Shown: piece after piece, positions 2,080-40,069 of the stretch | How positions within the stretch are numbered: position 1 is the stretch's first letter | Layout: each line of letters begins with the position of its first letter | NCBI GenBank assembly: GCA_039908345.1 | Contig: JAMOBD010000038.1 | Coordinates: forward strand, 1-45,845 | Length of the DNA stretch: 45,845 nt | DNA from: Magnetospirillum sp. WYHS-4 | GTDB taxonomy: Bacteria; Pseudomonadota; Alphaproteobacteria; Rhodospirillales; GLO-3 | Reading direction: 5' to 3' | Notes under the pieces: generated by a model | Database searches by the model: none | What the model was told of the DNA's origin: nothing | The model's input: the letters and a program-made list of their open reading frames with translations, nothing else | Made by a program: the position numbers and the translations under genes

Positions 2080-2080
2080 T

Positions 2081-2488
2081 TCAGCGCTTGCCGTAGGCCT
2101 TGCGACAGGCGTCCTCGACGGCCGCCGTTTCGGGCTTGCCCAGAGGCTTGCCGTTCCACAGCACCCGCCCGCCTTCCTGGACCGTGACCTTGCCCAAGGC
2201 CGGTTCCGCCTTGATGCCCTGGGCGGACAGGCCGTACTTGGCGGCCAAGTCATAGTTCAAGTCGAAGGAAACGTCCTTGGGCAGATCGAGGCGGGGCGAA
2301 TCGTCGGTTTCCGCCGGCTTGACCTTGCGACCGCGCACATCGGTACCGGGATTGTACTCGGCACTGGCCGCCGGCTGATGGCGGACGAGGCGCTTGCAGT
2401 CCTGGCGGCTCACCACAAGAGTGGTCTTGTCCGCCGCCCAGGCCGGCAGCGCCATCGACAGGGCCAACAGGAAAAGTCCCAAGCGCAT
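2081..2488 (-). CDS. Small exported protein of unknown function
   Basis: The 135-aa product begins with a typical Sec signal peptide (MRLGLFLLALSMALPAWA, cleavage before ADKTT), so it should be periplasmic. The mature part holds two cysteines (in QDCKRL and EDACRK) that could form a disulfide, and a terminal basic helix. No enzyme motif is recognised. It converges on manC with one base between the stop codons and is divergent from the NCS2 permease, with 70 bases between the starts. Function unknown; the signal peptide is the only solid assignment. Confidence 0.75.
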   Translation of the reverse strand: MRLGLFLLALSMALPAWAADKTTLVVSRQDCKRLVRHQPAASAEYNPGTDVRGRKVKPAETDDSPRLDLPKDVSFDLNYDLAAKYGLSAQGIKAEPALGKVTVQEGGRVLWNGKPLGKPETAAVEDACRKAYGKR

Positions 2489-2558
2489 GTCGGCAGTCTA
2501 CCACAAGGGGCGGAGGGAAGGGTATAATTCGTCCGCCTGACAGCCAGAAGGACCCGCC

Positions 2559-3848
2559 ATGCTCGACCGATTCTTCCGCCTTCGGGAAAACGGGACCACG
2601 GTCCGAACCGAACTGATGGCCGGACTGACCACCTTCCTGACCATGGCCTACATCGCGTTCGTCAACCCGCAGATCCTGTCCCAGGCGGGCATGGACCCCG
2701 GCGCGGTCTTCGTCGCCACCTGCTTGGGCGCCGCCTTCGGCACCCTGGTGATGGGCTTGTATGCCAACTACCCCATCGGACTGGCTCCCGGCATGGGGAT
2801 CAACGCCTATTTCACCTTCGGCGTGGTGCTGGGCATGGGATTGTCCTGGCAGGTGGCGCTGGGGACCGTCTTCGTGTCCGGCATCCTGTTCGTCGCCATC
2901 AGCCTGGCGCCAGTCCGCGAATGGATCATCGACAGCATCCCGATGTCACTGAAAATTTCGATTTCCGCCGGCATCGGCCTGTTCCTGGCGGTGATCGGCC
3001 TGACCGGCGCCGGTATCGTGGTGGACCATCCGGTGACCCTGGTGGCGCTGGGCAAGCTGTCCGATGCCAAGGTGCTGCTGGCCATCGCCGGGTTCATCGC
3101 CATGGTGTCCATGAGCGCCCGCGGAGTTCCCGCGGCGGTACTGATCGCCGTGCTGGGCGTCACCGCGGCTGGCTGGGCCTTCGGGCTGATCGAATACCGG
3201 GGACTGGTGTCGCTGCCACCCAGCCTCGCCCCGACCTTCCTGAAGATGGACCTGGCGGGGGCCCTCGATCTGGCCACCCTGCCGGTGATCTTCGCCTTCC
3301 TGTTCGTCAAGGTCTTCGACACCACGGGGACCCTGATCGGCGTCGCCCACCGAGCGGGCATGCTGGACAAGGACGGCAAGCTGCCCCGCCTGCGCAAGGC
3401 GCTGCTGGCCGACAGCAGCGCGGCCACCGTGGGCGCCGTTCTGGGCACCTCGCCGGTGACCAGCTACATCGAAAGCGCTTCGGGCATCCAGGCGGGCGGG
3501 CGCACCGGCCTGACCGCGGTCGCGGTGGGCGCCTTGTTCCTGCTCTGCCTGTTCTTCGCCCCCTTGGCCGGCATGGTGCCCGCCTTCGCCACGGCGCCGG
3601 CCCTGCTTTTCGTCGCCTGCCTGATGGCGCGCGGCCTGGCGGAAATCGACTGGCAGGACATGACCGAGGCGGCGCCCGCCCTGGTCACCGCACTCGGCAT
3701 TCCGCTGACCTATTCGATTTCCACCGGCATCGGCCTGGGCTTCATCACCTATGCGGCGGTCAAGATCCTGGCCGGCCGGACGCGCGAAGCCGGTACCGCC
3801 GTCCTGGTCCTGGCCGCCGCCTTCGTCGCCAAGTTCGTGGTGCTGTAG
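2559..3848 (+). CDS. NCS2-family (AzgA-like) purine permease
   Basis: Inner-membrane carrier (429 aa) of the nucleobase-cation symporter-2 family, AzgA/GhxP branch, which imports adenine, guanine or hypoxanthine with protons. The start LRENGTTVRTELMAGLTTFLTMAYI is characteristic. Hydrophobic segments fill the chain (about 12-14 helices). The GLAPGMGINAYF motif near residue 74 and the later DTTGTLIGVA and TSPVTSYIES segments are substrate-site signatures of this branch. A TATAAT -10 candidate lies at 2523-2528, but no good -35 is seen. The stop codon is part of a short inverted repeat shared with the convergent MarR gene. The exact purine cannot be told from sequence. Confidence 0.92.
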   Translation: MLDRFFRLRENGTTVRTELMAGLTTFLTMAYIAFVNPQILSQAGMDPGAVFVATCLGAAFGTLVMGLYANYPIGLAPGMGINAYFTFGVVLGMGLSWQVALGTVFVSGILFVAISLAPVREWIIDSIPMSLKISISAGIGLFLAVIGLTGAGIVVDHPVTLVALGKLSDAKVLLAIAGFIAMVSMSARGVPAAVLIAVLGVTAAGWAFGLIEYRGLVSLPPSLAPTFLKMDLAGALDLATLPVIFAFLFVKVFDTTGTLIGVAHRAGMLDKDGKLPRLRKALLADSSAATVGAVLGTSPVTSYIESASGIQAGGRTGLTAVAVGALFLLCLFFAPLAGMVPAFATAPALLFVACLMARGLAEIDWQDMTEAAPALVTALGIPLTYSISTGIGLGFITYAAVKILAGRTREAGTAVLVLAAAFVAKFVVL

Positions 3849-6761: not shown

Positions 6762-6944
6762 TCAAGTGGCGTTGGTGATGTTGTTGTACATGTTGCCCAC
6801 CTTGTCGACATAGTTGGTGATCGCGACCACGATCGCGATCACGATCCCGGCGGCGATCAGGGCATATTCGATCGATGTCGCCCCGTTCACGCTTCGGAAC
6901 AGCCGCCGAACCTCGCCCGCCAGTCGTGTCACCGTTTTACTCAT
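6762..6944 (-). CDS. flp: Flp-type (type IVb) pilin
   Basis: A 60-aa pilin from ATG 6944, chosen because AGGA lies nine bases upstream; the ATG at 6950 has it only three bases away. After a basic leader comes NGATSIEYALIAAGIVIAIVVAI, the type IVb prepilin site: cleavage after Gly by the CpaA peptidase, with Glu five residues into the mature chain and the adjoining Tyr of Flp pilins, then the hydrophobic polymerisation helix. The short C-terminus ends NNITNAT. It differs clearly from the two tandem Flp pilins at 24.3-25.0 kb (different tail and leader). It sits in the minus arm between the Crp-type regulator and the ExeA-like ATPase, so it is probably expressed separately from the other two. 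Confidence 0.88.
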   Translation of the reverse strand: MSKTVTRLAGEVRRLFRSVNGATSIEYALIAAGIVIAIVVAITNYVDKVGNMYNNITNAT

Positions 6945-6990
6945 GGCCATAGATCCTATCCCATCCCGAGCCGGCGCACCACGACCCGAA

Positions 6991-24342: not shown

Positions 24343-24516
24343 ATGGCTAGGAATCTCATCCAAGCTGCCACGGGCCTCTGGAAAGACGAGTCCGGTGCGA
24401 CCGCGATCGAGTACGGCCTTATCGCCGCCGGTATCGCGGTGGCCATTCTCGTCGCGATCACCACAGTCGGCAACGGCCTGCAAAACACGTTCAACAACGT
24501 CTCCAACAAGCTGTAA
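24343..24516 (+). CDS. flp: Flp-type pilin, tandem copy 1
   Basis: A 57-aa prepilin from ATG 24343 (the open frame to 24274 is leader). ESGATAIEYGLIAAGIAVAILVAITTVG carries the cleavage Gly, mature Glu5 and the polymerisation helix; the tail is QNTFNNVSNKL. It is very similar to copy 2, with about 14 nucleotide differences in 174, several of them amino-acid changes in the leader (TGLWKD against NRLWAD). Likely a major pilus subunit. A small hairpin CGCC-TTTTG-GGCG follows the stop. Confidence 0.92.
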   Translation: MARNLIQAATGLWKDESGATAIEYGLIAAGIAVAILVAITTVGNGLQNTFNNVSNKL

Positions 24517-24819: not shown

Positions 24820-24993
24820 ATGACTAGGAATCTCATGCAAGCTGCCAACCGCCTCTGGGCGGACGAGTCCGGCGCGACCGCGATCGAGTACGGTCTTATC
24901 GCCGCCGGTATCGCGGTGGCCATTCTCGTCGCGATCACCACGGTCGGCAACGGCCTGAAGAACACCTTCAACAACGTCTCCAACAAGCTGTAA
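24820..24993 (+). CDS. flp: Flp-type pilin, tandem copy 2
   Basis: A 57-aa prepilin (MTRNLMQAANRLWADESGAT at the start). The prepilin site and helix are identical to copy 1; the tail is KNTFNNVSNKL. The hairpin ATCGCC-TTCCC-GGCGAT (24993-25009) directly after the stop may stabilise or terminate the pilin mRNA. The prepilin peptidase cpaA follows 129 bases later. Confidence 0.92.
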   Translation: MTRNLMQAANRLWADESGATAIEYGLIAAGIAVAILVAITTVGNGLKNTFNNVSNKL

Positions 24994-27367: not shown

Positions 27368-28168
27368 ATGCATTTTGTCGATCCCGACAGCATCCCCACC
27401 ACCGGCAACGCGGCGATCGATGCCCACCATCGTCACATCGCCCACGCGGTGAACCATGTCTACGAAGCCTGGAAGGGATGGGACGGCATCGGATCGCTGG
27501 ATACGAGCCTGGCGGCAGCCTTGCGCGACGTGGAAATCCACTTGACGGTGGAAGAGATCATCACCCGCGGCGCCGGATACCAGGAATGGAAGTTCCACGA
27601 AACCCTGCACGATGCGCTGCGGTCCCGCCTGCGCGACGTGGCCGAACACGCCGGGGCCGTCCCCCACCGTCACCTGAGCCTGATGCAGGCCTTCGAATTC
27701 TTCGACCAAATGATCTTCCAGCATGAATTCTTCGACGACCAGGACTTCTGGGACACCTTCCGCCGCCATGCCGAGGCCCCGCGCGGTCCGCGCTTGGTGA
27801 CCTGGGATTCGCGGCTGGTCTTGGGGGAGAACGGCGTCGATTCCCGGCATTCGGAATTGGTGGCGGCGCTGAACGCCGTGCACGAGGCGATCGCCGACCG
27901 GGCCGCCTGCGATGACGTCCTGGCCCGTTTCGATATCCTGCGGGACGACTGGCTGGCCCACCTGGAGACCGAGGTCACGCGGATCGGCAGGCCGGAATCC
28001 CAACCCGCCAAGCAGGCCCGCGAAGCCATCGACATCCTGCGTGCCGACTTGGCCCTTGCCCGCCGCCATTGCGAGGACGGCGATTGCGAAGCCACGGGGG
28101 CCTTCCTGGTCAACCAGGCACGCTTCTGGCTGTTGGACCACATCACCTATCAGCACCGGCTGTTCTGA
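27368..28168 (+). CDS. Double-domain bacteriohemerythrin, second site degenerate
   Basis: A 266-aa soluble protein with two hemerythrin-like four-helix domains, which bind O2 at a non-heme di-iron site. Domain 1 has a full ligand set by pattern: His21, His58-x3-Glu62, His77-x3-His81, His119 and Asp124. Domain 2 keeps His161, His198-x3-Glu202 and His258, but the HxxxH pair is replaced by Gln212 and Gln216, and the last Asp by His263. Domain 2 therefore probably binds iron poorly or not at all. AAGG lies before the ATG. The paralogous gene follows ten bases later; hemN is next. Confidence 0.85.
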   Translation: MHFVDPDSIPTTGNAAIDAHHRHIAHAVNHVYEAWKGWDGIGSLDTSLAAALRDVEIHLTVEEIITRGAGYQEWKFHETLHDALRSRLRDVAEHAGAVPHRHLSLMQAFEFFDQMIFQHEFFDDQDFWDTFRRHAEAPRGPRLVTWDSRLVLGENGVDSRHSELVAALNAVHEAIADRAACDDVLARFDILRDDWLAHLETEVTRIGRPESQPAKQAREAIDILRADLALARRHCEDGDCEATGAFLVNQARFWLLDHITYQHRLF

Positions 28169-28178
28169 AGCGCCCGGC

Positions 28179-28976
28179 ATGAGCTTCGTCGACCCCGACC
28201 ACATCCCGAACACCGGCAACGCCGCCATCGACGCCCATCATCGGCGCATCGCCGTCCAGGTCAACGACCTGTTCGATGCCTGGAAGGCGGGGGGAGCGCC
28301 GACAGCCCTCAACAGCCGCCTTGATGAGGTGCTGCTGGAGATTTCGGATCATTTCGCCGCCGAGCGTTCCCTGGTGCGGGGGGCCGGCTACGCGGAGTGG
28401 GACACCCACGAGCCCATCCACGACACCATGCGGGAACGCATGGGGTCGATCCGCGCCGCCGTCGCCCAGGCTTCCAGCCATACCGACGGCATGATCGACG
28501 CTTTCCGCTTCTTCGAGGACCTGATCTTCAAGCACGAGTTCTTCGACGACCAGGACTTCTGGGACGCCTTCGCCCACTTGCCGCGGCGGGGAGGCGAAGA
28601 CCTGATCTCCTTTGGACCGGAACACCGGATCGGCCGGACCGCCATCGACGCCGAGCACGAGGAACTGGTTCGCCTGCTCAACGGCATCCACTCGGCTCTC
28701 GCGGACGGAGAGCCGGAACCGCTGCTCTGTATTCGCGTCCAGGCCCTGCGCAACGCCGCCATCACCCATTTCACCCACGAGGAAGACACCATGCGGTCGA
28801 TGGGGCATCCCGATCTCAAGGAGCACACGGTGCTCCACCGGGTCATGCTGCGCGACCTGGAGGACGCCATCCATCTCTGCCGCGAGGGCCGGCGGGACGA
28901 CATGAAGGACTTGGTGTCCACCGGCATCCGTTATTGGCTGCTCGACCACATCGCCGTCTGGGACCGGCGCATCTGA
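28179..28976 (+). CDS. Double-domain bacteriohemerythrin, both sites intact
   Basis: A 265-aa paralogue of the preceding protein. Domain 1 ligands fall at exactly the same positions (His21, His58, Glu62, His77, His81, His119, Asp124). Domain 2 is complete: His160, His197-x3-Glu201, His216-x3-His220, His257 and Asp262. ATG 28179 starts MSFVDPDHIPNTGNAAIDAHH, matching the paralogue; the longer open frame upstream is a shadow. Likely roles are O2 storage, delivery or sensing in a microaerobic cell; membrane and chemotaxis domains are absent. Confidence 0.88.
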   Translation: MSFVDPDHIPNTGNAAIDAHHRRIAVQVNDLFDAWKAGGAPTALNSRLDEVLLEISDHFAAERSLVRGAGYAEWDTHEPIHDTMRERMGSIRAAVAQASSHTDGMIDAFRFFEDLIFKHEFFDDQDFWDAFAHLPRRGGEDLISFGPEHRIGRTAIDAEHEELVRLLNGIHSALADGEPEPLLCIRVQALRNAAITHFTHEEDTMRSMGHPDLKEHTVLHRVMLRDLEDAIHLCREGRRDDMKDLVSTGIRYWLLDHIAVWDRRI

Positions 28977-29037
28977 CGCTTGGACAGGCCCGACGTTCCA
29001 GGCTAACGTGGCGCCACCGAAGCCAAGGACGGGCACC

Positions 29038-30387
29038 ATGACCGGCGATCTCCTGACCAAGTACGACCTGCGGGTTCCCCGCTACACCAGCTACCCCACC
29101 GCGCCCCACTTCTCCGAAGCGGTGGATGGGGATCTCTACCGGGAATGGCTGGGAACCTTGGCCCCGGAGACCGGCCTGTCGCTCTATTTCCATATCCCGT
29201 TCTGCGATTCCATGTGCTGGTTTTGCGGCTGCTACACCAAGATCGTGAAGCGCTATGAACCGGTGCGCGAGTACCTGGACAGCCTGCTGGCGGAAATCGA
29301 CCTGGTGGCCGCCGCCCTGCCCGGCCGCTTCCGGGCCCGCCATCTGCACTGGGGCGGCGGCAGCCCAACCATGCTGCGGGGCGACGACTGGCTGGAGATC
29401 ATCGACCGCCTGCGCGCCCGCTTCGACGTGGCGCCCGACGCAGAAATCGCCGTCGAGCTGGACCCCCGCACCGCCACCGAGGACTACGTGAAGGCCCTGG
29501 CGGCGGCCGGGGTCAACCGGGCCAGCATCGGGGTGCAGGACTTCGATGCCGAAGTCCAGGCGGCGATCAACCGCATCCAGCCCTTCGAGATGACGAAGCA
29601 GGTGGTCGACTGGCTACGCAAGCACGGCATCGCACGGGTCAACATGGACCTGATGTACGGCCTGCCCCGGCAGGACACGGCGCGGGTGCTGCGCGAGGTG
29701 GAACTGGCCGCCAGCCTGAAGCCGGCACGAGTCGCCCTGTTCGGCTACGCCCATGTCCCCTGGATGAAGAGCCACCAGAAGATGATCGACGAAGCCGCCC
29801 TGCCCGGCACCCAGGAACGCTGGGAGCAGTTTTCGGCGGCGTCGGAGCGGCTGGAGGACCTCGGATACAGGGCGGTCGGACTCGACCATTTCGCCTTGCC
29901 GGACGACAGCCTGGCGGTGGCATTGGGCGAAGGCGGGCTGCACCGCAATTTCCAGGGCTACACTACCGACCGCGGCCAGGTGCTGATCGGCATGGGCGCC
30001 TCCGCCATCGGCCAATTGCCCCAGGGCTACGTGCAGAACGCGCTGCCGCTCAAGGACTACGGCAACGCCATCGCCCAAGGCCGCTTCGCCACCCGCAAGG
30101 GCCTGGCGCTCACCGCCGAGGACCGCCTGCGGGCCGACGTGATCGAGCGCCTGATGTGCGACCTCGCCCTCGACCTGGACGCCGTCTGCGCCCGCCACGG
30201 CGTCACGCGCGACCACTTCGCCGCCGACCTGAAGAAGCTGGAACCCTTGGCCGCCGACGGCCTGCTGATCCTGGACGGCGGCAAGGTGGCCGTGACGACG
30301 GCCGGCCGCGCCTTCGTCCGCCTGGCCGCCGCCGCCTTCGACGCCTACCTGGAACAAGGCCAGAAGCGCCACTCCAAGGCCGTATGA
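29038..30387 (+). CDS. hemN: Oxygen-independent coproporphyrinogen III oxidase
   Basis: A 449-aa radical-SAM enzyme that decarboxylates coproporphyrinogen III without O2 in heme synthesis. HIPFCDSMCWFCGCYTKI carries the CxxxCxxC cluster motif plus the extra cysteine typical of true HemN rather than HemW. HWGGGSPTML is the SAM-binding glycine motif, and the C-terminal HemN domain is present (FQGYTTDRGQVLIGMGASAIG). ATG 29038 is chosen from the family N-terminus (LLTKYDLRVPRYTSYPT). A loose -35/-10 pair, TTGGAC 18 TAACGT, ends 28 bases upstream. Position after the hemerythrin genes suggests low-oxygen physiology. Confidence 0.94.
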   Translation: MTGDLLTKYDLRVPRYTSYPTAPHFSEAVDGDLYREWLGTLAPETGLSLYFHIPFCDSMCWFCGCYTKIVKRYEPVREYLDSLLAEIDLVAAALPGRFRARHLHWGGGSPTMLRGDDWLEIIDRLRARFDVAPDAEIAVELDPRTATEDYVKALAAAGVNRASIGVQDFDAEVQAAINRIQPFEMTKQVVDWLRKHGIARVNMDLMYGLPRQDTARVLREVELAASLKPARVALFGYAHVPWMKSHQKMIDEAALPGTQERWEQFSAASERLEDLGYRAVGLDHFALPDDSLAVALGEGGLHRNFQGYTTDRGQVLIGMGASAIGQLPQGYVQNALPLKDYGNAIAQGRFATRKGLALTAEDRLRADVIERLMCDLALDLDAVCARHGVTRDHFAADLKKLEPLAADGLLILDGGKVAVTTAGRAFVRLAAAAFDAYLEQGQKRHSKAV

Positions 30388-30418: not shown

Positions 30419-33400
30419 TTACCTCGGAGCACACGGGGCGTAGCTCAGCCTGGTAGAGCGCCTGCTTTGGGAGCAGGAAGCCGCTGGTTCGAATCCAGTC
30501 GCCCCGACCAAGCTTTTCAACAGGAAAGCGACGAACTCGTCCTCCGGAACCGGCTTGCTGAACAGGTATCCCTGGGCCCGGTCACACCCCATGGTACGCA
30601 GAATGCCGAGTTGCGCTTCGGTTTCCACGCCCTCTGCGATGACCTTGATATCGAGCGCATGGGCCATTCCGATAATGGCTGCGGCGATGGCCCGGCTGTT
30701 CTTCTCCGCTACCAGTTCCCGGACGAAAGCACGGTCGATCTTCAGGTAGTGCACCGGCATACGGAGCAACTGGCTCAATGACGAATATCCGGTTCCGAAA
30801 TCATCCACCGCGATGGCCAAGCCAAGCTCTCCCAAGCCGTTCAGGGTTATCAGGTTCGCCTCGACATCGCGCATCAAGGAGGATTCCGTGATTTCCAACA
30901 GAACCCGGTCGTATGCCGTTCCGGCAGAGGCAATGGTCCTTTGGAAACGGGGGATCAGGTCCGTATCGTCCAACTGCCGTGTGGAAACGTTGACCGAGAC
31001 ATAAGGAGCCGCGTCCGTCCCGGCCCGCGCCTGCCAGCGGGCCTGCGCCGCACAGGCTTCCTCCAGGACCCATTGGCCGATCAGTGAAATCGCTCCCGTT
31101 TTTTCGGCCACCGGAATAAACCGGTCGGGCGATACCGGCCCGTCGGCCGGAAACCAGCGAATCAGCGCCTCGGCCCCGACGATGCACGTCGAGGCGACAT
31201 CCACGATGGGCTGGTACATAAGCCGCATCTCATCTCGTTCCAGGGCGGTCCTGAGCCCATTGCCGAGAGCCAATTCGCGCTTGGCCCTTTCGTGAATCTC
31301 GTCATTGAATATCTTCCAGTTGTCCCGCCCCTGGTCCTTGGCCAAATACATGGCGGCATCCGCGTTGCGCAACAGATCTTCGGGCGTTACCGCGTCCCCA
31401 ATGCCGAAGGCGATACCGACACTGGCCGAGATGTAAAGGGTCTGACCCCGGATCCGGAAGCAATTGCGCAGTTCCTCGACCACCCTTTGGGCCACGGTGG
31501 CCAGTTGGGCGTCGTCGTCGATCTGTTCGCAGAGGATGACGAATTCGTCACCGCCAAGCCGTGCCAATGTGTCGCCCGGCCGCACGATGCCGATCAGTCG
31601 TTTGCTCGCCTCAATCAGCAACTCGTCACCGACGTCATGGCCATGGCTATCGTTGACCAGTTTGAAACCATCGAGATCGATGAACAGCAGCCCCACCAAT
31701 TTGGTCGATCGCTGGCCGCGGCTCAGGGCATTGGATATCCGGTCGCGAATCAAAGCCCTGTTCGGCAGGTTCGTCAGGGGATCGTGCGTCGCCTGCCAAG
31801 TCAATTCCTCCTCGATCTTCTTGCGTTCCGAGACATCTTGGAGGGTCGCGACCAGGACCCAGCCATCCTCGCCATGAACTTTGGAAATCGACGCCTGCGC
31901 CGGAAATTCGGACCCGTCCTTGCGATAGCCGGCGATGGCACCCCGGCGCCCCATGGGGATGGACATGTCGTCGGAGTGCAGAAACCGCTCAAGGAAACGG
32001 GCATGGATCTTCCGCGACTGGGGCGGCACGAGAAGGTGGACGGGCAGGCCCAGCAATTCGGATTCCGCATAGCCGAACAGGGTACAGGCACTTTCGTTGG
32101 CCTGGAGAATGTGCCCCCCTTCGTCCGTCGCGACGATCGCCGTGTCGGCAATGGAAAGAATCTGGCTCAAGGCCCGTTTGCTCGCCACGGCATGGGAATC
32201 GAGGGAAGACATGTCCAGACAGGTCAGGGCATAGCCGTTCGGCTCCTGGGCATCGTCGTGCATCGGCTCGACGCGAACGAACCGAGCTCCCGTTTCGCCG
32301 TCGAGAAGGAGGGCTTCCAGGATTCCCGACCAGGGCGCCGCGAGGGCCTTATTGTCGAGAATCTCGTCAAAAATCCCAGGGTGCTTCCAAAGGTCGCCGC
32401 CCGCACGGCCAAGAAAAGCCTGTTGATTGCGGGATCGCCAGAGGCGCAGAAATGGCTCGTTGACGTAGGCGACCGTCTTGTCCCTGGATAACAAAGCTAT
32501 CCCCGTCATGTCGAACAGACGGTCGAGCGGCGGCGATGGCGGCCGAAGAGCCCGGCGTTCAACCTCATCCCCGCTCGGCAGGTCGAATAGATGACGGTAG
32601 CGCGTCGGAATCACCGGCGCGATCTGCCCGAAATTCTCGATAAGTTCGAAGGTGCCATCCTCCCGGCAGCAAGCCAGGTAACCGTTGACCGCGGCATGAT
32701 GGGTCAGTGGGTCCATACTGACCTCGCCCTGAGGTCCGGTTACGGACACCTGTTCCAACGCGACGATCAGATCCTCGACACCAAGGGAGCCGGCTCGGCG
32801 AACCGCTTCGGCAAACGCCTTGACGCAGAGATACGTACCTTCGCCGAAATTGGTCAGCAGACCATTTCCCCCGGGCCAGATTCCAGTCACCCCCGGCAAG
32901 TTCGAGAGGCGTTCCAGGTAGGCCCGGTTGGCCGGCGTGTCGACGGACATGAAGTAGGTGTTACTGGAATAGAATCCCGCCCGAACCTCGGGCGGAAGAT
33001 AGCCGACCATGGATTCGTCGTAATGCCCCATGACCACCGCCATGCGATCCTTAAGGCCGAGTTCCGAGAAGCGGGTCAGCAGGTTGATCTGATCGGCGCC
33101 GGCGAAATAGGGCACGAACACGTCGGCGCCCGACTTGGCGAGTTCGTCCAGCAACTCGTCGATATCCGCCGAACCGATAGGCAGATAGGTCTCGCCCACT
33201 ACCTCGCCGCCAAGGCCGGCCAGTGCCATCTTGGCCGCGTCGATCGAGCCGCGCGGCCATTCGTAATTGCTGCCGGCAAAGAACATCTTTGGGCCGAAGC
33301 GATCGGCCATGTAGGGAATCATGCGGTCGATCTGCTGGTTGGGCAGGGCCGCGAAATGGAAAAAGTAGCGCGACGAGATGCTGCCCTCGTAGAAAGAGAA

Positions 33401-33721
33401 GTTCAAATGCGGAACCCGGCGCGGGTCGGCCACGCGGTTGGCGACGGCAATCCGCGAATTGGACAGAAGGTTGCCGATGATACCGACGCATCCCATCTCA
33501 TCGACCAGACGTTCGGCCGCCGGGACTGCCGTTTCCGGAAGACTGCCATCATCCACGATCACCAGTTCCAAGGGCCGCCCCAGCAATCCCCCGGCCGCGT
33601 TCACCTCGTCGCAGGCAATGCGGCCGGCCCAAGTGATTTCCGGCCCGTACAGAGCGACCAAGCCGGTGAGCGGCGCCATCAGCCCCAAGCGAACGGTCGT
33701 GACGTCATCATGCTTTATCAT
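30419..33721 (-). CDS. Cytosolic PBP-PAS-PAS-GGDEF-EAL c-di-GMP enzyme
   Basis: A 1100-aa protein from ATG 33721. Residues about 8-370 are a type-1 periplasmic-binding-protein fold (VRLGLMAPLTGLVALYGPE, AAGGLLGRPLELVIVDDG) of the amide/urea receptor type, but no signal peptide or membrane helix exists, so it should sense a ligand in the cytoplasm, as AmiC does. PAS domains lie at about 397-510 and 520-640. GGDEF is intact (RLGGDEF near 724) with an RxxD inhibitory site (RPGD) five residues before it. The EAL domain has GAEALIRW near 852 and DDFGTGYSSL, so both activities look possible. The natural end is near FLLKS; the frame then reads 27 residues antisense through tRNA-Pro to TAA 30419-30421. 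Confidence 0.88.
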   Translation of the reverse strand: MIKHDDVTTVRLGLMAPLTGLVALYGPEITWAGRIACDEVNAAGGLLGRPLELVIVDDGSLPETAVPAAERLVDEMGCVGIIGNLLSNSRIAVANRVADPRRVPHLNFSFYEGSISSRYFFHFAALPNQQIDRMIPYMADRFGPKMFFAGSNYEWPRGSIDAAKMALAGLGGEVVGETYLPIGSADIDELLDELAKSGADVFVPYFAGADQINLLTRFSELGLKDRMAVVMGHYDESMVGYLPPEVRAGFYSSNTYFMSVDTPANRAYLERLSNLPGVTGIWPGGNGLLTNFGEGTYLCVKAFAEAVRRAGSLGVEDLIVALEQVSVTGPQGEVSMDPLTHHAAVNGYLACCREDGTFELIENFGQIAPVIPTRYRHLFDLPSGDEVERRALRPPSPPLDRLFDMTGIALLSRDKTVAYVNEPFLRLWRSRNQQAFLGRAGGDLWKHPGIFDEILDNKALAAPWSGILEALLLDGETGARFVRVEPMHDDAQEPNGYALTCLDMSSLDSHAVASKRALSQILSIADTAIVATDEGGHILQANESACTLFGYAESELLGLPVHLLVPPQSRKIHARFLERFLHSDDMSIPMGRRGAIAGYRKDGSEFPAQASISKVHGEDGWVLVATLQDVSERKKIEEELTWQATHDPLTNLPNRALIRDRISNALSRGQRSTKLVGLLFIDLDGFKLVNDSHGHDVGDELLIEASKRLIGIVRPGDTLARLGGDEFVILCEQIDDDAQLATVAQRVVEELRNCFRIRGQTLYISASVGIAFGIGDAVTPEDLLRNADAAMYLAKDQGRDNWKIFNDEIHERAKRELALGNGLRTALERDEMRLMYQPIVDVASTCIVGAEALIRWFPADGPVSPDRFIPVAEKTGAISLIGQWVLEEACAAQARWQARAGTDAAPYVSVNVSTRQLDDTDLIPRFQRTIASAGTAYDRVLLEITESSLMRDVEANLITLNGLGELGLAIAVDDFGTGYSSLSQLLRMPVHYLKIDRAFVRELVAEKNSRAIAAAIIGMAHALDIKVIAEGVETEAQLGILRTMGCDRAQGYLFSKPVPEDEFVAFLLKSLVGATGFEPAASCSQSRRSTRLSYAPCAPR
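30434..30510 (+). tRNA. tRNA-Pro (anticodon TGG)
   Basis: The 77-nt cloverleaf is complete. The acceptor stem CGGGGCG (30434-30440) pairs with CGCCCCG (30500-30506), followed by A and an encoded CCA. The D arm contains AGCTCAGCCTGGTAGAGC. The anticodon stem is CCTGC / GCAGG with loop TTTGGGA, giving TGG. The T arm contains GGTTCGAATCC. No terminator follows; the 3' end abuts the coding region of the antisense GGDEF-EAL gene. Confidence 0.97.
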
Positions 33722-33764
33722 GGCGCGATATTTAGCCGCCGGCAGGACGAAAAAGAAAGGTTCT

Positions 33765-34298
33765 TCACCCCCGCCCCTGCAACAAGGCACGGGACATGTC
33801 GCCCAGCAGGCGACGGAACGGACGGTCGTTCGGGCCCTGGATGTTGCGCGCCCAGCCCTCGGCATCCGACAGGGGATCGCCGTCGGCGCAAAGCACCGCC
33901 CGCACCGTCAGCTTGTCGGGATTGAAGGACAGTTCGGGATGCCGGCCGTCGCAAAGCCGATGGGCCGGCATGGCGGTCAAGCCGCCGAACATGACGATGA
34001 CCCGGATATTGGGGTGGGGCGCCTCGGATTCGCGGCCGGTGAAGGTCACCACCCGCCCCATGACCCCATCCGGCAAGCGGTCGCGCACCAGATTTCCAAA
34101 CAGGGGCTCCTCCATGCCGAAGGGATTTCCCAGTACTTGGGCCAGTATCGGCCCATCCTTCGAGGCATAGGTGAGCACGCTATCGATCAGCGCTTGGCCC
34201 TTGCTGAAATTGGAGACCACGGAGGGCCCGTTCTCACAGGCCGACAGCAAAGGAGCCAGCCCGGCGGCCAGCCACCGCAACACCCTGCCGAATTCCAT
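33765..34298 (-). CDS. Lipoprotein of unknown function
   Basis: A 177-aa protein with a lipoprotein signal (LLSAC, Cys21). The mature part has FSKGQALIDSVLTYASKDGPILAQVLGNPF and a later LRDxGRHPELSFNPDKLTVRAVLC-like segment with two cysteines (in HRLCDGR and AVLCADG) that might pair. No known domain is recognised. It follows the acyl carrier protein gene by 51 bases on the same strand and precedes the GGDEF-EAL gene by 43, so it is likely co-transcribed with both. Confidence 0.72.
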   Translation of the reverse strand: MEFGRVLRWLAAGLAPLLSACENGPSVVSNFSKGQALIDSVLTYASKDGPILAQVLGNPFGMEEPLFGNLVRDRLPDGVMGRVVTFTGRESEAPHPNIRVIVMFGGLTAMPAHRLCDGRHPELSFNPDKLTVRAVLCADGDPLSDAEGWARNIQGPNDRPFRRLLGDMSRALLQGRG

Positions 34299-34349
34299 CC
34301 CAGGTCCCCCGACCGGTTATCATGCGGCCTGATCGTAGCCGTCCCCTGC

Positions 34350-34598
34350 CTAGCGGGCAAGCAATCCGGTCAGATAGGCCGTCGCGCTGTCCAGGCTGGA
34401 CAGCCTCGGGTAATCCAGTTCGGGAATGTGGATGGTGAAGGTGCGCTCCAGGGCCAGGGCGAAGTTCAGGCAGTCCACGGAATCGAATTCGAACTGGTCG
34501 CGGAAGTTCACGTCGGGCTTCAGGACGCCCTCGTCCAGGTCGGGAGCCACCTCCTTCAGCACCATCAACACCTGCGCACGGATTTCGGCTTCGGTCAT
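34350..34598 (-). CDS. Acyl carrier protein
   Basis: An 82-aa acyl carrier protein. FEFDSVDCLNFALALE contains the phosphopantetheine site, Ser40, in the DSxD motif (DSVD in place of the fatty-acid ACP DSLD). The helix pattern and acidic character fit the fold. It is not the housekeeping acpP, which normally sits with fabD/fabG/fabF and has a different sequence around the serine. It overlaps the upstream two-TM gene by four bases. No ketosynthase or transferase lies nearby except acs upstream, so its acyl partner is unknown. Confidence 0.9.
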   Translation of the reverse strand: MTEAEIRAQVLMVLKEVAPDLDEGVLKPDVNFRDQFEFDSVDCLNFALALERTFTIHIPELDYPRLSSLDSATAYLTGLLAR

Positions 34599-35134
34599 GA
34601 TCGTTCCTTCTCCTTCCGATCGCCCCCGGCATCCAGGAACTTTGCTACCATACCGGCGGCGGCGGCCCCGGCCAGGGCCACCCCCACTGCGGAAGCGTTG
34701 AAATAGGCACTGGCAACGGCTCCGGCGACCAGGGCAAAGCCGAGGAGCAAAGCGGATTTCATCGCCAGCTTCTGGAGGTCGCGCAGATCGTTCCGTTCCT
34801 GTCTTCGACCCTCGATCTCTTCTTCTTGACGCATCAAGTCGATCTCGGCCTGCCTGAGGGTAAGCTTGGCGACCTGATCCGCGAAATGGGCATCCGGGGC
34901 AAGCTTGTCGAGAAATTCTATCTCCTCGATATCGAACGTACCGTCGGGGACATGCCGGGTTTCCAAGCGGATCAGGTGGCTTAGATGCTCGATGACCACC
35001 GAAACCTTGTCGTCGTCGACGACGCCCCGCAAAGCCTGCTTGACTGCATCCTCGACTTCGATGGGAAGCGACACAGTATCTTCTTCCGGTGCCGGGGCGC
35101 CTGGAACAGGGTGGGTACCCTGGGACTCGGCCAT
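34595..35134 (-). CDS. Coiled-coil protein with C-terminal TM hairpin
   Basis: A 179-aa protein of unknown family. The acidic N-terminal half includes IEVEDAVKQALRGVVDDDKV. A charged helical stretch with coiled-coil character follows (AEIDLMRQEEEIEGRRQERNDL), then two membrane helices at about 126-145 and 149-167, and a short basic end. Its stop overlaps the acyl carrier protein start, indicating translational coupling. It could anchor an ACP-dependent process to the membrane; that is inference. Confidence 0.72.
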   Translation of the reverse strand: MAESQGTHPVPGAPAPEEDTVSLPIEVEDAVKQALRGVVDDDKVSVVIEHLSHLIRLETRHVPDGTFDIEEIEFLDKLAPDAHFADQVAKLTLRQAEIDLMRQEEEIEGRRQERNDLRDLQKLAMKSALLLGFALVAGAVASAYFNASAVGVALAGAAAAGMVAKFLDAGGDRKEKERS

Positions 35135-35138
35135 CGGT

Positions 35139-35471
35139 TCAGCCTTCCTTTTCGGTTTCCGAAGCGGAAGGGGTCAAAGGGGTGGCATAGAGGCTGGAAA
35201 GGGCGGACAGCCCGTCGAGAAAGCCCTTCCGAAAAGCCTTCTTCCGCAGAGCTTTCCGGCTCTCGCCGCTAGCCCGGATCTGAAAGGCCCTCGACTTGTC
35301 CAATCCAAGGAATTCGCCTTTCCCCAGGCAAGCACGACGGAGTTCGCCAGCCGATGCAAGAACGGCCCCATTGAACTTGGAAGTCAGATCCAGCTTTCGG
35401 GGAAGCGCCAGTCGCAGGCCGGGCGTTCCTTCCTCTTTCGCCAGGCCGGAACGTAAGACTATGCGGCGCAT
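35139..35471 (-). CDS. Unknown 110-aa protein, first gene of ACP operon
   Basis: The protein begins MRRIVLRSGLAKEEGTPG and contains a basic middle (SGESRKALRKKAFRKGFLDGL). It has no signal peptide, membrane helix or recognised motif. It is directly downstream of a promoter-plus-palindrome and four bases ahead of the two-TM gene, which supports it as a real gene rather than a chance frame. A DNA- or RNA-binding role is possible from its charge, but no helix-turn-helix is evident. Confidence 0.55.
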   Translation of the reverse strand: MRRIVLRSGLAKEEGTPGLRLALPRKLDLTSKFNGAVLASAGELRRACLGKGEFLGLDKSRAFQIRASGESRKALRKKAFRKGFLDGLSALSSLYATPLTPSASETEKEG

Positions 35472-35498
35472 TCGGGAACCATCGGTGATATGGAGCTT

Positions 35499-35514
35499 CT
35501 AATCCATGGATTAG
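35499..35514. promoter_or_regulatory. Perfect 16-bp palindrome, candidate operator
   Basis: CTAATCCATGGATTAG is fully symmetric. It starts eight bases downstream of the -10 element of the minus-strand promoter at 35523-35550, so it covers the expected transcription start. That placement is typical of a repressor site. No regulator gene is adjacent. Confidence 0.5.
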
Positions 35515-35522
35515 GTGCGGTC

Positions 35523-35550
35523 ATAGTACATAATCGCCGCCACCTGTCAA
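35523..35550 (-). promoter_or_regulatory. Sigma70-type promoter of the ACP operon
   Basis: On the minus strand TTGACA (35550-35545), a 16-base spacer and TACTAT (35528-35523) form a near-consensus promoter, one of the best in the window. It lies just after the acs stop and 52 bases upstream of the first ATG of the four-gene unit. Confidence 0.6.
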
Positions 35551-35581
35551 ACCACGGTCCGGTGACAAGCCCGCCGCTCGG

Positions 35582-37294
35582 TCAATCGTCCAGCGTCGAG
35601 ATGTCGCCTTCCGGCAGGCCCAGTTCGCGAGCCTTCAGCAGGCGGCGCATGATCTTACCCGAACGGGTGCGGGGCAGTCCATCCAGGATCGCGATCTCGC
35701 GCGGGGCCAGTGCCGCGCCCAGGCGCTTGCGGGCGAATCCCACCAACTCGCGGACCAGGGCGTCGGACGCCACCTGCCCCGCCTTCAGGGAAACGAAGGC
35801 CTTGATCGATTCGCCGGTCACCGGATCGGGCTTGCCGATCACCCCGGCCTCGGCCACCGCCGGATGTTCGAGCAGCAGGCTTTCCACCTCGAACGGGCTG
35901 ACCAGATGGCCCGACGACTTGATGACATCGTCGGCCCGCCCGACGAACCAGTAATAGCCATCGGCATCCCGCTTGGCGATGTCGCCGGTCAGATACCAGC
36001 CACCGACGAAACGCTTGGCGGTACGTTCCGGTTCGTCCAGATAGCCGCGGAACTGGGACGGCCAGCCCACCTTGAGCGCCAATTCGCCCTCGGCGTCCGT
36101 CTCGGCTGCCGGTTCCAGCCCGCCGCCCGGCCCGGGCCGCAGGATGGCCGCCTCGATGCCCGGCAGGGGCTTGCCCATGGAACCGGGACGGACGTCCAGG
36201 GTGGGATAGTTGGCGATCATGATCGCCCCGGTCTCGGTCTGCCACCAAGTGTCGTGGAAGGGGGAACCGAAAACCTGTTGGCCCCAGACGACGCCTTCGG
36301 GATTGAGCGGCTCGCCGACGCTGGCCAGCAGGCGCAAAGACGAATAGTCGAAGCGGCGGAACGGCTCGACGCCTTGGCGCATCATCATGCGGATAGCGGT
36401 GGGCGCCGTGTACCAGACGGTGACGCGCTGGTCCTGCAAGACCCGGCACCAGCGCTGAGGGTCGAAATCCTCCTCGTCGACGATCAGGGTGACCCCGTTG
36501 GCCAACGGCGCCACGATCCCGTAAGAAGTCCCGGTCACCCAGCCTGGATCGGCCGTGCACCAGAAAATATCCCCAGGCCGCAAGTCGAGCGCCAGCTTGC
36601 CGGTCAGGCGATGGGCCACCACCGCCTCGTGCACGTGCAGGGCGCCCTTGGGTTTGCCCGTGGTGCCGCTGGTGAAGTGCAGCAGTGCCGGGTCCTCCGG
36701 GGCCGTCGGGGGAATGGCGAAAGTGTCCGACATCGCCGCCAGGCTGGCGTCCCAATCGGCACCGATGACGATCACCCGCTCCAGACTCGGCACCTGGTTC
36801 CGGATCGCCGCCACCTTGCGCTCGTAGAGGGCTTCCGTGGTCACCAGAACCTTGGCCTCGCCCAATTGCAGGCGGGTGAGGATGGGTTCCGGCCCGAAGG
36901 CCGAAAACAACGGACAGAAGACCGCCCCGGCCTTCAGGCTGCCCAAGGCCGCCACGTAGAGTTCCGGCACCCTGCCCGCCAGACCGAAGACCCGCTCGCC
37001 CTTCTTCACCCCGAGGGAGACCAGCAGGTTCGCGAAGCGGTTGGTGCGGGCGGCCAGGTCGGCGTAGCCGATGTCCTCGACGGTACCGCCCTTGCGCAGG
37101 CAGCGCAACGCGACCCGCCCACTCGCCGCGTGGCGGTCCACCGCCTCGAAGGCGATATTGAGGCCCCCGCCCGGCAGGCCGGCCAACTCGGCCCGCGCCG
37201 CCTCCCAGGTGAAGGATGCCCGCGCCGTCGCGTAGTCCGGCAGGTTGGGCGACACCCGATAGGGCCCTGACTTGCGGATCGTTTCCCACGCCAT
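35582..37294 (-). CDS. acsA: Acetyl-CoA synthetase (AcsA-type, AMP-forming)
   Basis: A 570-aa acyl-CoA synthetase that activates acetate (or another short acid) with ATP to acyl-AMP and then acyl-CoA. Motifs are [20 protein letters not shown] (nucleotide loop), [29 protein letters not shown] and the C-terminal [11 protein letters not shown] with catalytic Lys near 547, the residue that Pat enzymes acetylate. Length and order fit Bacillus AcsA rather than the longer enteric Acs. It is divergent from the Pat-type gene, with 93 bases between the starts. Confidence 0.93.
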
Positions 37295-37387
37295 CTGACA
37301 GTTACCGTTCGGTCATTTGCTATTCTCCGCAATTTCGGCGATGATTTTTGCACCTGCGAAGAATTGGATCAACCAGGAACGTTTTTC

Positions 37388-40069
37388 ATGACCGTCCGTA
37401 ATCTCGACAAGCTCTTCAAGCCCAAGTCCATCGCCCTCATCGGCGCCAGCAACCGGCCGCAGTCGGTGGGTGCGGTGCTGGCGGGCAACCTCTTCCTGTC
37501 CGGATTCGAGGGACCGGTCATGCCGGTCAACCCCAAGCACCAGGCGATCCACGGCGTGCTGACCTACAAGGACGTGGCCAGCCTGCCGGTCACCCCCGAC
37601 CTGGCGGTGATCAGCACCCCGCCCCACGCCATACCGGGCATCGTTGCCGAACTGGGGGCGCGCGGCACCCGGGCGGCGGTGGTCATCACCGCCGGCTTCG
37701 GCGAAGGTGCCGACGAGGCGGGACGGGCGCTGAAGCAAAGCCTGCTCGACGCCGCAAAACCCTATTCCTTCCGCATCATCGGGCCCAATTGCCTGGGCAT
37801 CATGGCGCCTCGCATCGGGCTCAACGCCAGCTTCTGCCACGTCTCGCCCAAGACCGGCCCCATCGCCTTCGTCGCCCAGTCGGGTGCCATCGTCACCTCG
37901 GTGGTCGATTGGGCCCACAGCCGCGGCATCGGCTTCTCCCATCTGGTGTCGCTGGGCGACATGGCCGACGTGGATTTCGGCGACATGCTCGACTATCTGG
38001 CCAACGATCCCAACACGCGGGCCATCCTGATGTACGTGGAGGCCGTGACCAGCGCCCGCAAGTTCATGTCGGCGGCCCGCGCCGCGGCGCGCATGAAGCC
38101 GGTGATCGTGGTCAAGGCCGGCCGCTATGCCGAAGGCGCCAAGGCGGCGGCCTCCCATACCGGTGCCCTGGCCGGGCTGGATTCCGTCTACGACGCCGTG
38201 TTCAAGCGCGCCGGCATGTTGCGCGTAATCAGCCTGACCCAGCTTTTCGACGCCGTCGAGGTGCTGGCCATGATGACCCCGCCGGAGGGCGACCGCCTCG
38301 CCATTCTGACCAACGGCGGCGGAATCGGCGTGCTGGCGACCGATGCCCTGGTGGCCCTGGGCGGCCGGCTCGCCCAGTTGCAGCCCGAGACGATCCAGAA
38401 GCTCAATGCCGTGCTGCCGCCCACATGGTCGCACGGCAACCCGGTCGACATCATCGGCGATGCGCCCGGAAAGCGTTACGAGGATTCCCTGCGCATTCTC
38501 CTGGCGGACAAGGGGGTAGACACCACCCTGGTGCTCAACTGCCCGACCGCCGTCGCCTCGCCCATCGACGCCGCCCGCGCGGTCGCCACGGTGGCCGGAG
38601 AACGCAAGGGCCAACGGGTCCTGACCAGTTGGGTGGGCGACAGCGCGGCGCGCGAATCCCGCCACCTGTTCGAGGAAAAGCGCATCCCGACCTATGACAC
38701 GCCGGAGCAGGCGGTGCGCGCCTTCACCTACCTCGTGAACTATAAGCGCAGCCAGGAACTGCTGATGGAGACCCCGCTCTCCATGCCGGAGGATTTCACG
38801 GTCGATGCCGACCGCGCCCGCACCATCGCCAAGCGGGCGGTCGAGGACGGCCGCGATTGGCTGACCGAACCGGAGGCCAAATCCATGCTGGCGGCCTACG
38901 GCATCCCCACGGTGCCGACCCATATCGCCTGCACGCCCGACGAAGCGGCGGGAATCGCCGCCGAACTGGGCGGCCCGGTGGTGCTGAAGGTGCTGTCGCC
39001 CGACATCACCCACAAGTCGGATATCGGCGGGGTGCTGGTGGACATCGCCGGCCCGGCTCTGGTCAAGGCGGCGGCCGCCGAGATGCTGGACCGCATCGGC
39101 AAGGCAAGGCCCGACGCCCGCCTGGAGGGCGTCACGGTACAACCCATGGTGCGTCGCCCCGGCGCCTACGAGTTGATCATGGGTGTGCTGTCCGACCCGC
39201 AGTTTGGACCGATCATCCTGTTCGGCCACGGCGGCACGGCGGTCGAGGTGATCGACGACAAGGCCCTGGGTCTGCCGCCACTCAACATGCGCCTGGCTCG
39301 CGAATTGATGTCGAACACCCGCATCTACAAGCAGTTGACCGGCTTCCGGGGCCTGAAGGCGGTCAACCTGGATGCTGTGGCACTGACGCTATTGAAGATT
39401 TCCCAACTCGTGGTCGACGTCCCGGAGATATCCGAATTGGATATCAACCCGCTGCTGGCCGACGAATGGGGCGTGGTCGCCCTCGATGCCCGCGTCAAGG
39501 TCAAGGCCGCTCACGGCTCGGGCGCCGACCGCCTGGCCATCCGGCCCTATCCGAAGGACTTGGAACAGGAGGTACCGCTGGGCGACGGGCGGCTGCTGTT
39601 CCTGCGCCCGGTGGTACCCGAGGACGAGCCCTCCCTGCAGGAGACCTTCGCCCGCCTGACGCCGGAGGAAATCCGGTTGCGCTTCTTCGTGCCCATGCAG
39701 ACCATGTCGCACCTCCAGGCGGCGCGCTTCACCCAGATCGACTACGACCGCGAAATGGCGCTGATCCTCACCGAACGGGGCATCCCCGGGAAGACGCCCA
39801 TCTACGGCACGGTGCACATCAACGCCGACCCAGACCTGCAGAAAGCCGAATACGCCATTATGGTGGAGCAGGAGATGACGGGCCTCGGCCTGGGCGTCTT
39901 CCTCATGCGCCGCATCATCGAATATGCCAAGTCGCGTGGCATCGGGGAAATCCACGGCGACGTGCTGCGCGAGAACGGCACCATGCTGAAGCTTTGCCGG
40001 GCCTTGGGCTTCACGCAGTCCAACAACCCCGACGACACCAGCATCGTCAAGGTGGTGCTGAAGCTGTAG
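37388..40069 (+). CDS. Pat/YfiQ-like acyl-CoA synthetase-GNAT acetyltransferase
   Basis: An 893-aa fusion from ATG 37388 (AGGAA nine bases upstream; a TTG at 37364 is possible). Order: CoA-binding Rossmann domain (SIALIGASNRPQSVGAVLAGNL), succinyl-CoA-ligase-like domains (GPNCLGIM, SHTGALAG with a histidine at the phosphohistidine position of ADP-forming ligases), ATP-grasp (about 490-700, GGPVVLKVLSPDITHKSDIGG) and a C-terminal GNAT domain from about 734 with GLGLGVFLMRRII. Pat proteins of this build acetylate and silence Acs at its catalytic lysine. The divergent acs gene supports that target. Confidence 0.9.
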   Translation: MTVRNLDKLFKPKSIALIGASNRPQSVGAVLAGNLFLSGFEGPVMPVNPKHQAIHGVLTYKDVASLPVTPDLAVISTPPHAIPGIVAELGARGTRAAVVITAGFGEGADEAGRALKQSLLDAAKPYSFRIIGPNCLGIMAPRIGLNASFCHVSPKTGPIAFVAQSGAIVTSVVDWAHSRGIGFSHLVSLGDMADVDFGDMLDYLANDPNTRAILMYVEAVTSARKFMSAARAAARMKPVIVVKAGRYAEGAKAAASHTGALAGLDSVYDAVFKRAGMLRVISLTQLFDAVEVLAMMTPPEGDRLAILTNGGGIGVLATDALVALGGRLAQLQPETIQKLNAVLPPTWSHGNPVDIIGDAPGKRYEDSLRILLADKGVDTTLVLNCPTAVASPIDAARAVATVAGERKGQRVLTSWVGDSAARESRHLFEEKRIPTYDTPEQAVRAFTYLVNYKRSQELLMETPLSMPEDFTVDADRARTIAKRAVEDGRDWLTEPEAKSMLAAYGIPTVPTHIACTPDEAAGIAAELGGPVVLKVLSPDITHKSDIGGVLVDIAGPALVKAAAAEMLDRIGKARPDARLEGVTVQPMVRRPGAYELIMGVLSDPQFGPIILFGHGGTAVEVIDDKALGLPPLNMRLARELMSNTRIYKQLTGFRGLKAVNLDAVALTLLKISQLVVDVPEISELDINPLLADEWGVVALDARVKVKAAHGSGADRLAIRPYPKDLEQEVPLGDGRLLFLRPVVPEDEPSLQETFARLTPEEIRLRFFVPMQTMSHLQAARFTQIDYDREMALILTERGIPGKTPIYGTVHINADPDLQKAEYAIMVEQEMTGLGLGVFLMRRIIEYAKSRGIGEIHGDVLRENGTMLKLCRALGFTQSNNPDDTSIVKVVLKL

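Follow-up and report, generated by a model that had tools for sequence, protein, structure and literature searches.

An apparently undescribed association of an acyl carrier protein gene with acetate- and pyruvate-activating genes, and its form without pyruvate dehydrogenase in Magnetospirillum sp. WYHS-4

Acyl carrier proteins (ACPs) normally serve the synthesis of fatty acids, polyketides or cell walls. With MadH (an acetate:ACP ligase) and citrate lyase, the acetyl thioester is carried on an ACP rather than on coenzyme A (CoA), and in DltA/DltC and the acyl-ACP synthetases (AasS) an AMP-forming ligase has an ACP as acceptor. To our knowledge, no ACP belongs to the known AcsA system, a PRK04319-type acetate--CoA ligase with a Pat-type acetyltransferase. 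In malonate decarboxylase, too, an acetyl thioester stands on an ACP, MdcC, rather than on CoA; MdcC carries phosphoribosyl-dephospho-CoA and sits with the decarboxylase subunits (PMC5534430). Here we analyse an ACP gene on a 45,845-nucleotide (nt) stretch of Magnetospirillum sp. WYHS-4 (assembly GCA_039908345.1, contig JAMOBD010000038.1; hereafter, the window), and report that genes of its family stand with genes for an AMP-forming acetate--CoA ligase (ACS) and, in many loci, for pyruvate dehydrogenase (PDH).

The locus shares parts with several of these systems and differs from each. Loci of the new family carry acs and, in their commonest form, pdhABC, unlike those of MdcC, MadH and citrate lyase; compared with DltA/DltC and AasS, the ligase belongs to the acetate--CoA family and the ACP scores under the DltC cut-offs. 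An ACS above its family cut-off and Pat-like domains are shared with the AcsA-type system, and the E1 and E2 families with operons for pyruvate dehydrogenase E1alpha, E1beta and E2, from which the new loci differ by acs in front, a dedicated acp behind and FNR-type boxes nearby in several cases. Neither an acs-pdhABC-acp nor an acs-acp operon was named in the open-licence literature searched, which is weak evidence of novelty. The ACP family is apparently unnamed and its association with acs and pdhABC apparently undescribed.

The ACP gene (34350-34598, minus strand) encodes 82 residues with the phosphopantetheine serine in a DSVD motif (residue 40), and its assignment rests on Pfam PP-binding (24.2 bits, cut-off 20.8), alignments and a tree. 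It scored under the cut-off for all 17 NCBIfam models listed, reaching 23-29 bits with AcpP-type models (cut-offs 66-106; TIGR00517, 25 bits against 70.45) and 17.6-18.4 bits with DltC models (cut-offs 52-68; TIGR01688, 17.6 against 52.35). Thirty aligned relatives matched 20 NCBIfam families (best E 2.4e-12), none of them named for an acs or pdh context. The family and the DSxD phosphopantetheine site are shared with housekeeping AcpP (TIGR00517/PRK00982), but the window ACP has Asn for Glu five residues after the serine (Ser+5) and does not lie beside fab genes. Among the 42 collected ACPs, the serine is kept in all, and Ser+5 is Asn in 38, Ser in two and Lys in two, against Glu in 11/11 AcpP-like rows. 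Positions +11 to +13 hold mixed letters with many His, Lys or Arg, and +12 is still Glu in 12/42. We take the helix-II Glu at Ser+5 and the neighbouring positions of AcpP to dock the enzymes of fatty-acid synthesis. The genome's own AcpP-like gene is separate (G000:C42, 42 bits) and lies beside a FabF-like open reading frame (ORF; by inspection); no second ACP of the window's family was found in this genome. An earlier note on this DNA had named identity with the housekeeping acpP as fatal to its proposal; we reject that identity on the AcpP model scores, the Asn at Ser+5 and the separate AcpP-like gene.

Relatives were collected at several taxonomic scales. A single-sequence search of 60 genomes of the order (E ≤ 0.001) returned five matching genomes, the window's own included: three with relatives at 48-51% identity, and G044 with a weak match (L006/L011; 28% identity, E 6.3e-4) whose sequence marks it as an ACP of a different kind and which was excluded from the 42. 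A scan of named genomes added five further loci, from metagenome-assembled genomes (MAGs) labelled Acidobacteriota, Rhodobacteraceae, alphaproteobacterial and Desulfuromonadales and from an uncultured Aliiroseovarius. A profile of nine ACP rows (A1), chosen by similarity to the window ACP and irrespective of gene context, gave 20 strong matches (at least 74.8 bits) in 19 of 385 genomes of the class, with the next score at 54 bits, where AcpP-like sequences start; the window ACP, itself one of the nine rows, scored 123.8 bits against at most 54 for AcpP-like sequences. Matches at 1e-15 occurred in 14 of 398 genomes of the phylum. The family is carried by genomes belonging to the same class and phylum as the window and by MAG contigs labelled Acidobacteriota and Desulfuromonadales; named carriers are the Alphaproteobacteria Aliiroseovarius, Leisingera and Methylocystis, with Azospirillum by match alone. 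Start codons of several collected ACPs are guesses.

Gene context sets this family apart. In all 41 loci other than the window, the ACP gene lies directly behind a gene for E2 of the 2-oxo-acid (pyruvate) dehydrogenase family (35 loci, with a partial E2 match in L079) or directly behind acs (six loci: L008, L009, L010, L012, L052 and L058). E2 and acp overlap by 4 nt in 20 of the 24 junctions mapped, the rest being gaps of 1, 1, 8 and 29 nt. An ACS gene stands on the same strand in 24/24 non-window loci having at least 4.3 kb upstream, a count that leaves out the 11 loci from the phylum scan together with L014, L016, L047, L055 and L068, which run into contig or record ends. The most frequent gene order is acs-pdhA-pdhB-pdhC-acp, with E1alpha and E1beta fused in some loci; annotated examples are found in Leisingera methylohalidivorans NC_023136 and Methylocystis rosea pGW6_1. 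Around 11 AcpP-like genes taken as a control, no ACS or E2 match was found within 1.5 kb. The conserved and apparently undescribed gene association that the earlier note had suspected around this ACP is real, with ACS and PDH in place of the genes it had listed.

Several features of the sample bear on these counts. Eleven of the 41 loci were covered by 1.5-kb flanks only, and some rows are not independent (L009/L010 and L066/L068 each come from one genus, L054/L062 and L070/L079 each from one genome). L079 is partly degenerate, with an E2 stretch of 77 residues, and enters the adjacency count and not the ACP tree. In a plasmid search, 12 of 13 ACP matches overlap an annotated E2 gene and the thirteenth record carries no annotation; three of the 13 were examined in sequence detail. 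In a Leisingera aquaemixtae plasmid, the ACP gene follows a stretch in which E1/E2 is broken up, and no acs was found within the DNA covered. Lipoyl, E3-binding and catalytic domains were found in the E2 of L066, and both Leisingera E2s (L066:10844-12004 and L068:1987-2751) have lost the Asp of the E2 motif, with acp kept. Among the 60 genomes of the order, ACS at E ≤ 1e-120 was found in five, four of which are the strong-ACP genomes.

In the window, acs (35582-37294, minus strand) is the conserved partner of the ACP gene and encodes a 570-residue AMP-forming acetate--CoA ligase of the PRK04319 family (NCBIfam NF003313, 850.8 bits, cut-off 729), with 9g79 as a solved relative. A WW motif, which we take to mark the acetate pocket, and an A10-type Lys, presumably catalytic, are kept in 26/26 ACP-linked ACS proteins, the window's included. 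The ACS match stops 986 nt before the ACP, on the same strand, and two further genes, g1 and g2, lie in between. The earlier note had seen no acyl-handling enzyme; this holds within the genes it described, beyond which ACS stands directly upstream, the gene ending 110 nt before g1. Divergent from acs is a gene (37388-40069, plus strand) for a Pat-like protein with the Pfam domains CoA_binding_2, Succ_CoA_lig, ATP-grasp_5 and Acetyltransf_1, a putative NDP-forming acyl-CoA-synthetase plus GNAT architecture; it scored 44.1 with NCBIfam ActPatMycb56 (cut-off 460). A divergent Pat-like gene is present in 5/5 other acs-acp loci with enough upstream DNA, against none of the 19 PDH-type loci for which 4.3 kb or more of upstream DNA was covered.

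The window thus has a PDH-less layout, Pat-like gene and acs-acp divergent from each other, with g1, g2 and a promoter inserted between acs and acp. pdhA-pdhB-pdhC are absent between acs and acp from the window and from six other acs-acp loci (in L008, ACS and Pat were located by tblastn). In the ACP tree (84 columns, midpoint root, bootstrap not settled), the seven ACPs of these loci form one clade (98/89) beside three PDH-type rows (96/91). Because they form a single clade in that position, a single origin of the acs-acp type from PDH-containing operons is probable. The ACS tree, which includes three long rows, is compatible with this but weak in its resolution of the acs-acp proteins (63/78, united in 60% of bootstrap trees).

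Regulatory sequences upstream of acs were compared through boxes of the form TTGAT-N4-ATCAA, which we take to be the FNR/FixK consensus. The count covered genes with at least 60 nt of free upstream DNA and at least 150 nt of sequence. Boxes matching at 9/10 or better precede acs in 6/16 PDH-type operons, compared with 19/211 other genes of these same loci (Fisher p 0.0037), and letter-shuffled upstream regions gave 0.04 boxes per 23 regions against the six found. At 8/10 or better the number rises to 11/16. The 19 control-gene boxes are confined to seven loci, and two Leisingera plasmids account for ten of the boxes. In L066, L068, L059 and L061 the acs-pdh-acp operon is surrounded by an island with several boxes of the FNR type, and the Leisingera islands include USP, Hsp20, CBS and DUF2267 genes, plus ppsA in L066. 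Outside the four acs-acp loci that were counted, the best box upstream of acs in L009 and L010 is 8/10. FNR control of the window's acs was rejected, as its best site is 7/10, a score common in shuffles.

From the conserved partners we propose, at somewhat less than even confidence, that acs(-pdhA-pdhB-pdhC)-acp is an acetyl-activating module with the ACP as its dedicated carrier. Both ACS and E2 finish by handing acetyl to a thiol and the phosphopantetheine site is conserved, so that an acetyl-accepting thiol on the ACP is the simplest common role. The serine would be converted to give holo-ACP, whose arm thiol would replace CoA-SH as acceptor of acetyl from acetyl-AMP on ACS; where PDH is present, acetyl could also be accepted from acetyl-dihydrolipoyl-E2. 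Acetyl-ACP would then form a pool of its own, separate from both acetyl-CoA and the synthesis of fatty acids. In the window's clade, ACS would be the sole acetyl source beside the ACP, and the divergent Pat-like acetyltransferase probably tunes ACS. A more specific version, which we hold more tentatively, is a CoA-sparing relay in which ACS and a low-oxygen PDH load the dedicated ACP rather than, or besides, CoA, the window having the ACS-only form.

A number of observations weigh against an acetyl-carrier role. The window's ACS clears the ordinary acetate--CoA ligase cut-off, and ACS does not need the ACP, since G057, a relative in the order, has an ACS 54-55% identical with no ACP, E1/E2 or Pat in the surrounding 14 kb. 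No PDH lies beside the window's ACP, and the E2 matches in its own genome are 29% and 30% identical to the ACP-linked type; that genome also holds a 94-residue lipoyl-domain stretch (L107, G000:C28:11-298) with 43% identity to ACP-linked E2, cut by a contig end. The E2 motif is DHRxxDG in 22 ACP-linked E2s and DHRVSGG in both Leisingera E2s. Five of the 16 PDH-type operons have no box before acs that reaches 8/10, and boxes at 9/10 were found in 0/4 members of the acs-acp clade. No conserved user of acetyl-ACP was recognised beside acp in the mapped loci. ACS and PDH could simply yield plain acetyl-CoA, with the ACP doing something else.

One such alternative, unlikely in our judgement yet the best placed of those considered, is that the ACP, whether or not acylated, is a regulatory or scaffold subunit that binds ACS or E2 and alters the assembly or activity of the complex, with no acetyl passed on. 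Mitochondrial ACP works as a subunit of a complex, a profile comparison places complex I ACPs among its closer relatives of solved structure, and the 4-nt overlaps suggest translational coupling; retention of the serine in all 42 ACPs, however, suggests that the thiol is used.

We consider it improbable that the ACP instead supplies octanoyl from fatty-acid synthesis for attaching lipoate to the E2 of its own operon. Octanoyl-ACP is the established lipoate precursor, and such a role would fit the direct adjacency of E2 and acp in 35 of 41 loci and the overlaps at 20 of 24 junctions. Against it, the invariant partner where testable is ACS, not E2, and the helix-II positions that contact fatty-acid-synthesis enzymes are altered, with Asn at Ser+5 in 38 of 42 and mixed letters at +11 to +13. 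Among the rival roles for the ACP this one is the most weakened, because all seven loci of the acs-acp clade, the window among them, lack an E2 beside the ACP.

Priming of a local short fatty-acid or polyketide-like synthesis with unlinked enzymes seems less probable again. Acetyl-ACP can prime such pathways, the ACP adjoins acetyl-making enzymes, and in L071 a thiolase-like ORF (1858-3063, opposite strand, by inspection) follows the ACP gene; yet no condensing-enzyme-like family was seen (by inspection) among the families, other than ACP, ACS, E1 and E2, present in at least three of the 31 mapped loci. The carrier role within an acetyl-activating module remains the reading that we prefer.

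The earlier note had grouped the ACP with three neighbours as a four-gene operon serving an envelope process with enzymes from elsewhere. All four of its ORFs were found on the minus strand, packed by overlap or short gaps: g1 (35139-35471), an orphan of 110 residues between acs and acp; g2 (34595-35134), next in line before acp, 179 residues, helical and carrying two hydrophobic segments (by inspection); the ACP gene; and g4 (33765-34298), 177 residues, a putative lipoprotein with the lipobox LSAC (by inspection). The spacing is 4 nt between g1 and g2, a 4-nt ATGA overlap between g2 and the ACP gene, and 51 nt from there to g4. An in-house codon model, for which related loci served as training set, accepts all four as genes, g1 being the weakest at 12 against 38-47.

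The three neighbours have little in common with the ACP in distribution. With tblastn, no partner of g1, g2 or g4 turned up in the DNA covered for the other 41 ACP loci, and none of the GGDEF/EAL protein encoded behind g4. No relative of g1 was found beyond its own genome among the 60 genomes, and g1 matched no known family; the same 60 gave none for g2, for which the 385 genomes of the class gave two marginal matches. The g4 family is present in 29/60 genomes, its own included, with varied neighbours at the nine other loci inspected, and is absent from the three other strong-ACP genomes of that sample. None of the three has a Pfam match, and an NCBIfam match was obtained only for g2, at E 1.1. 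A weak match joins g2 to a PHROG membrane protein (E=0.0011), and its fold, predicted without an alignment, is helical and of low confidence (pLDDT 62.8, pTM 0.27). We rejected g1/g2 as a known defence cassette, there being no PADLOC match, and as a phage cassette, no viral-contig relative of g2 (the only one of the two scanned) and no plasmid relative of either having been found.

The envelope operon, with g1, g2, the ACP and the lipoprotein functioning together, has in its favour the contiguity of the genes, the g2-ACP overlap, a promoter and palindrome of its own, the hydrophobic segments of g2 and the lipobox of g4, but we judge it very improbable and reject it, since none of g1, g2 and g4 reappears at the other ACP loci and g1 and g2 are near-orphans. 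The neighbours are not conserved around the ACP, an outcome that the earlier note had itself named as fatal to the four-gene unit, and an envelope process with outside enzymes finds no support, the conserved partners being ACS and PDH E1/E2, with ACS directly upstream in the window. What survives of the earlier interpretation is a distinct ACP, not acpP, in a conserved association.

The transcription signals described in the earlier note were borne out. Between acs and g1 lies a sigma-70-like promoter, TTGACA-16-TACTAT (35523-35550, minus strand, read from 35550 to 35523), near consensus at 10/12 and the sole match at that level in 33600-37500, where shuffles of the scanned region expect a mean of 0.6. 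A perfect 16-bp palindrome, CTAATCCATGGATTAG (35499-35514), covers the likely start of the g1-g2-acp transcript, its first base separated from the -10 hexamer by 8 nt. Its perfection alone means little, because the window has perfect 16-bp palindromes at seven positions, two of which overlap, where its composition would predict 1.4. The search of the genome for further copies, as the earlier note had advised, found a single copy in 3.65 Mb, also with two mismatches allowed, on which ground we reject a regulon operator; at most the palindrome would serve as an operator for this locus or, with a 6-bp stem and a 4-nt loop (by inspection), as a hairpin at the 5' end. The interval from acs to g1 showed no terminator-like site, which makes read-through from acs into g1-g2-acp plausible. 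With two orphan genes and an internal promoter between acs and acp, transcription of acp probably has two sources, this promoter and read-through from acs.

Downstream of g4, after a gap of 43 nt, a gene on the minus strand (30419-33721) encodes a protein of 1100 residues with periplasmic-binding-protein-like (Peripla_BP_6), PAS, GGDEF and EAL domains and no obvious signal peptide (by inspection); given the short gap, co-transcription of g4 with this cyclic di-GMP gene is possible. Beyond it, the plus strand (27368-30387) carries a tandem pair of hemerythrin-like ORFs and, behind them, a HemN-like ORF (all named by inspection); these suggest oxygen-related functions in the neighbourhood of the ACS and ACP genes. 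Three small Flp-pilin-like ORFs (6762-6950, 24343-24516 and 24835-24993) lie around a Tad-like region (by inspection).

In the loci described here, the ACP is the last cistron of acetate- and pyruvate-activating operons. If the proposed role is true, these operons would mark a branch point in central carbon metabolism that has gone unrecognised, possibly one used at low oxygen, and acetyl-ACP would be a separate acetyl currency.

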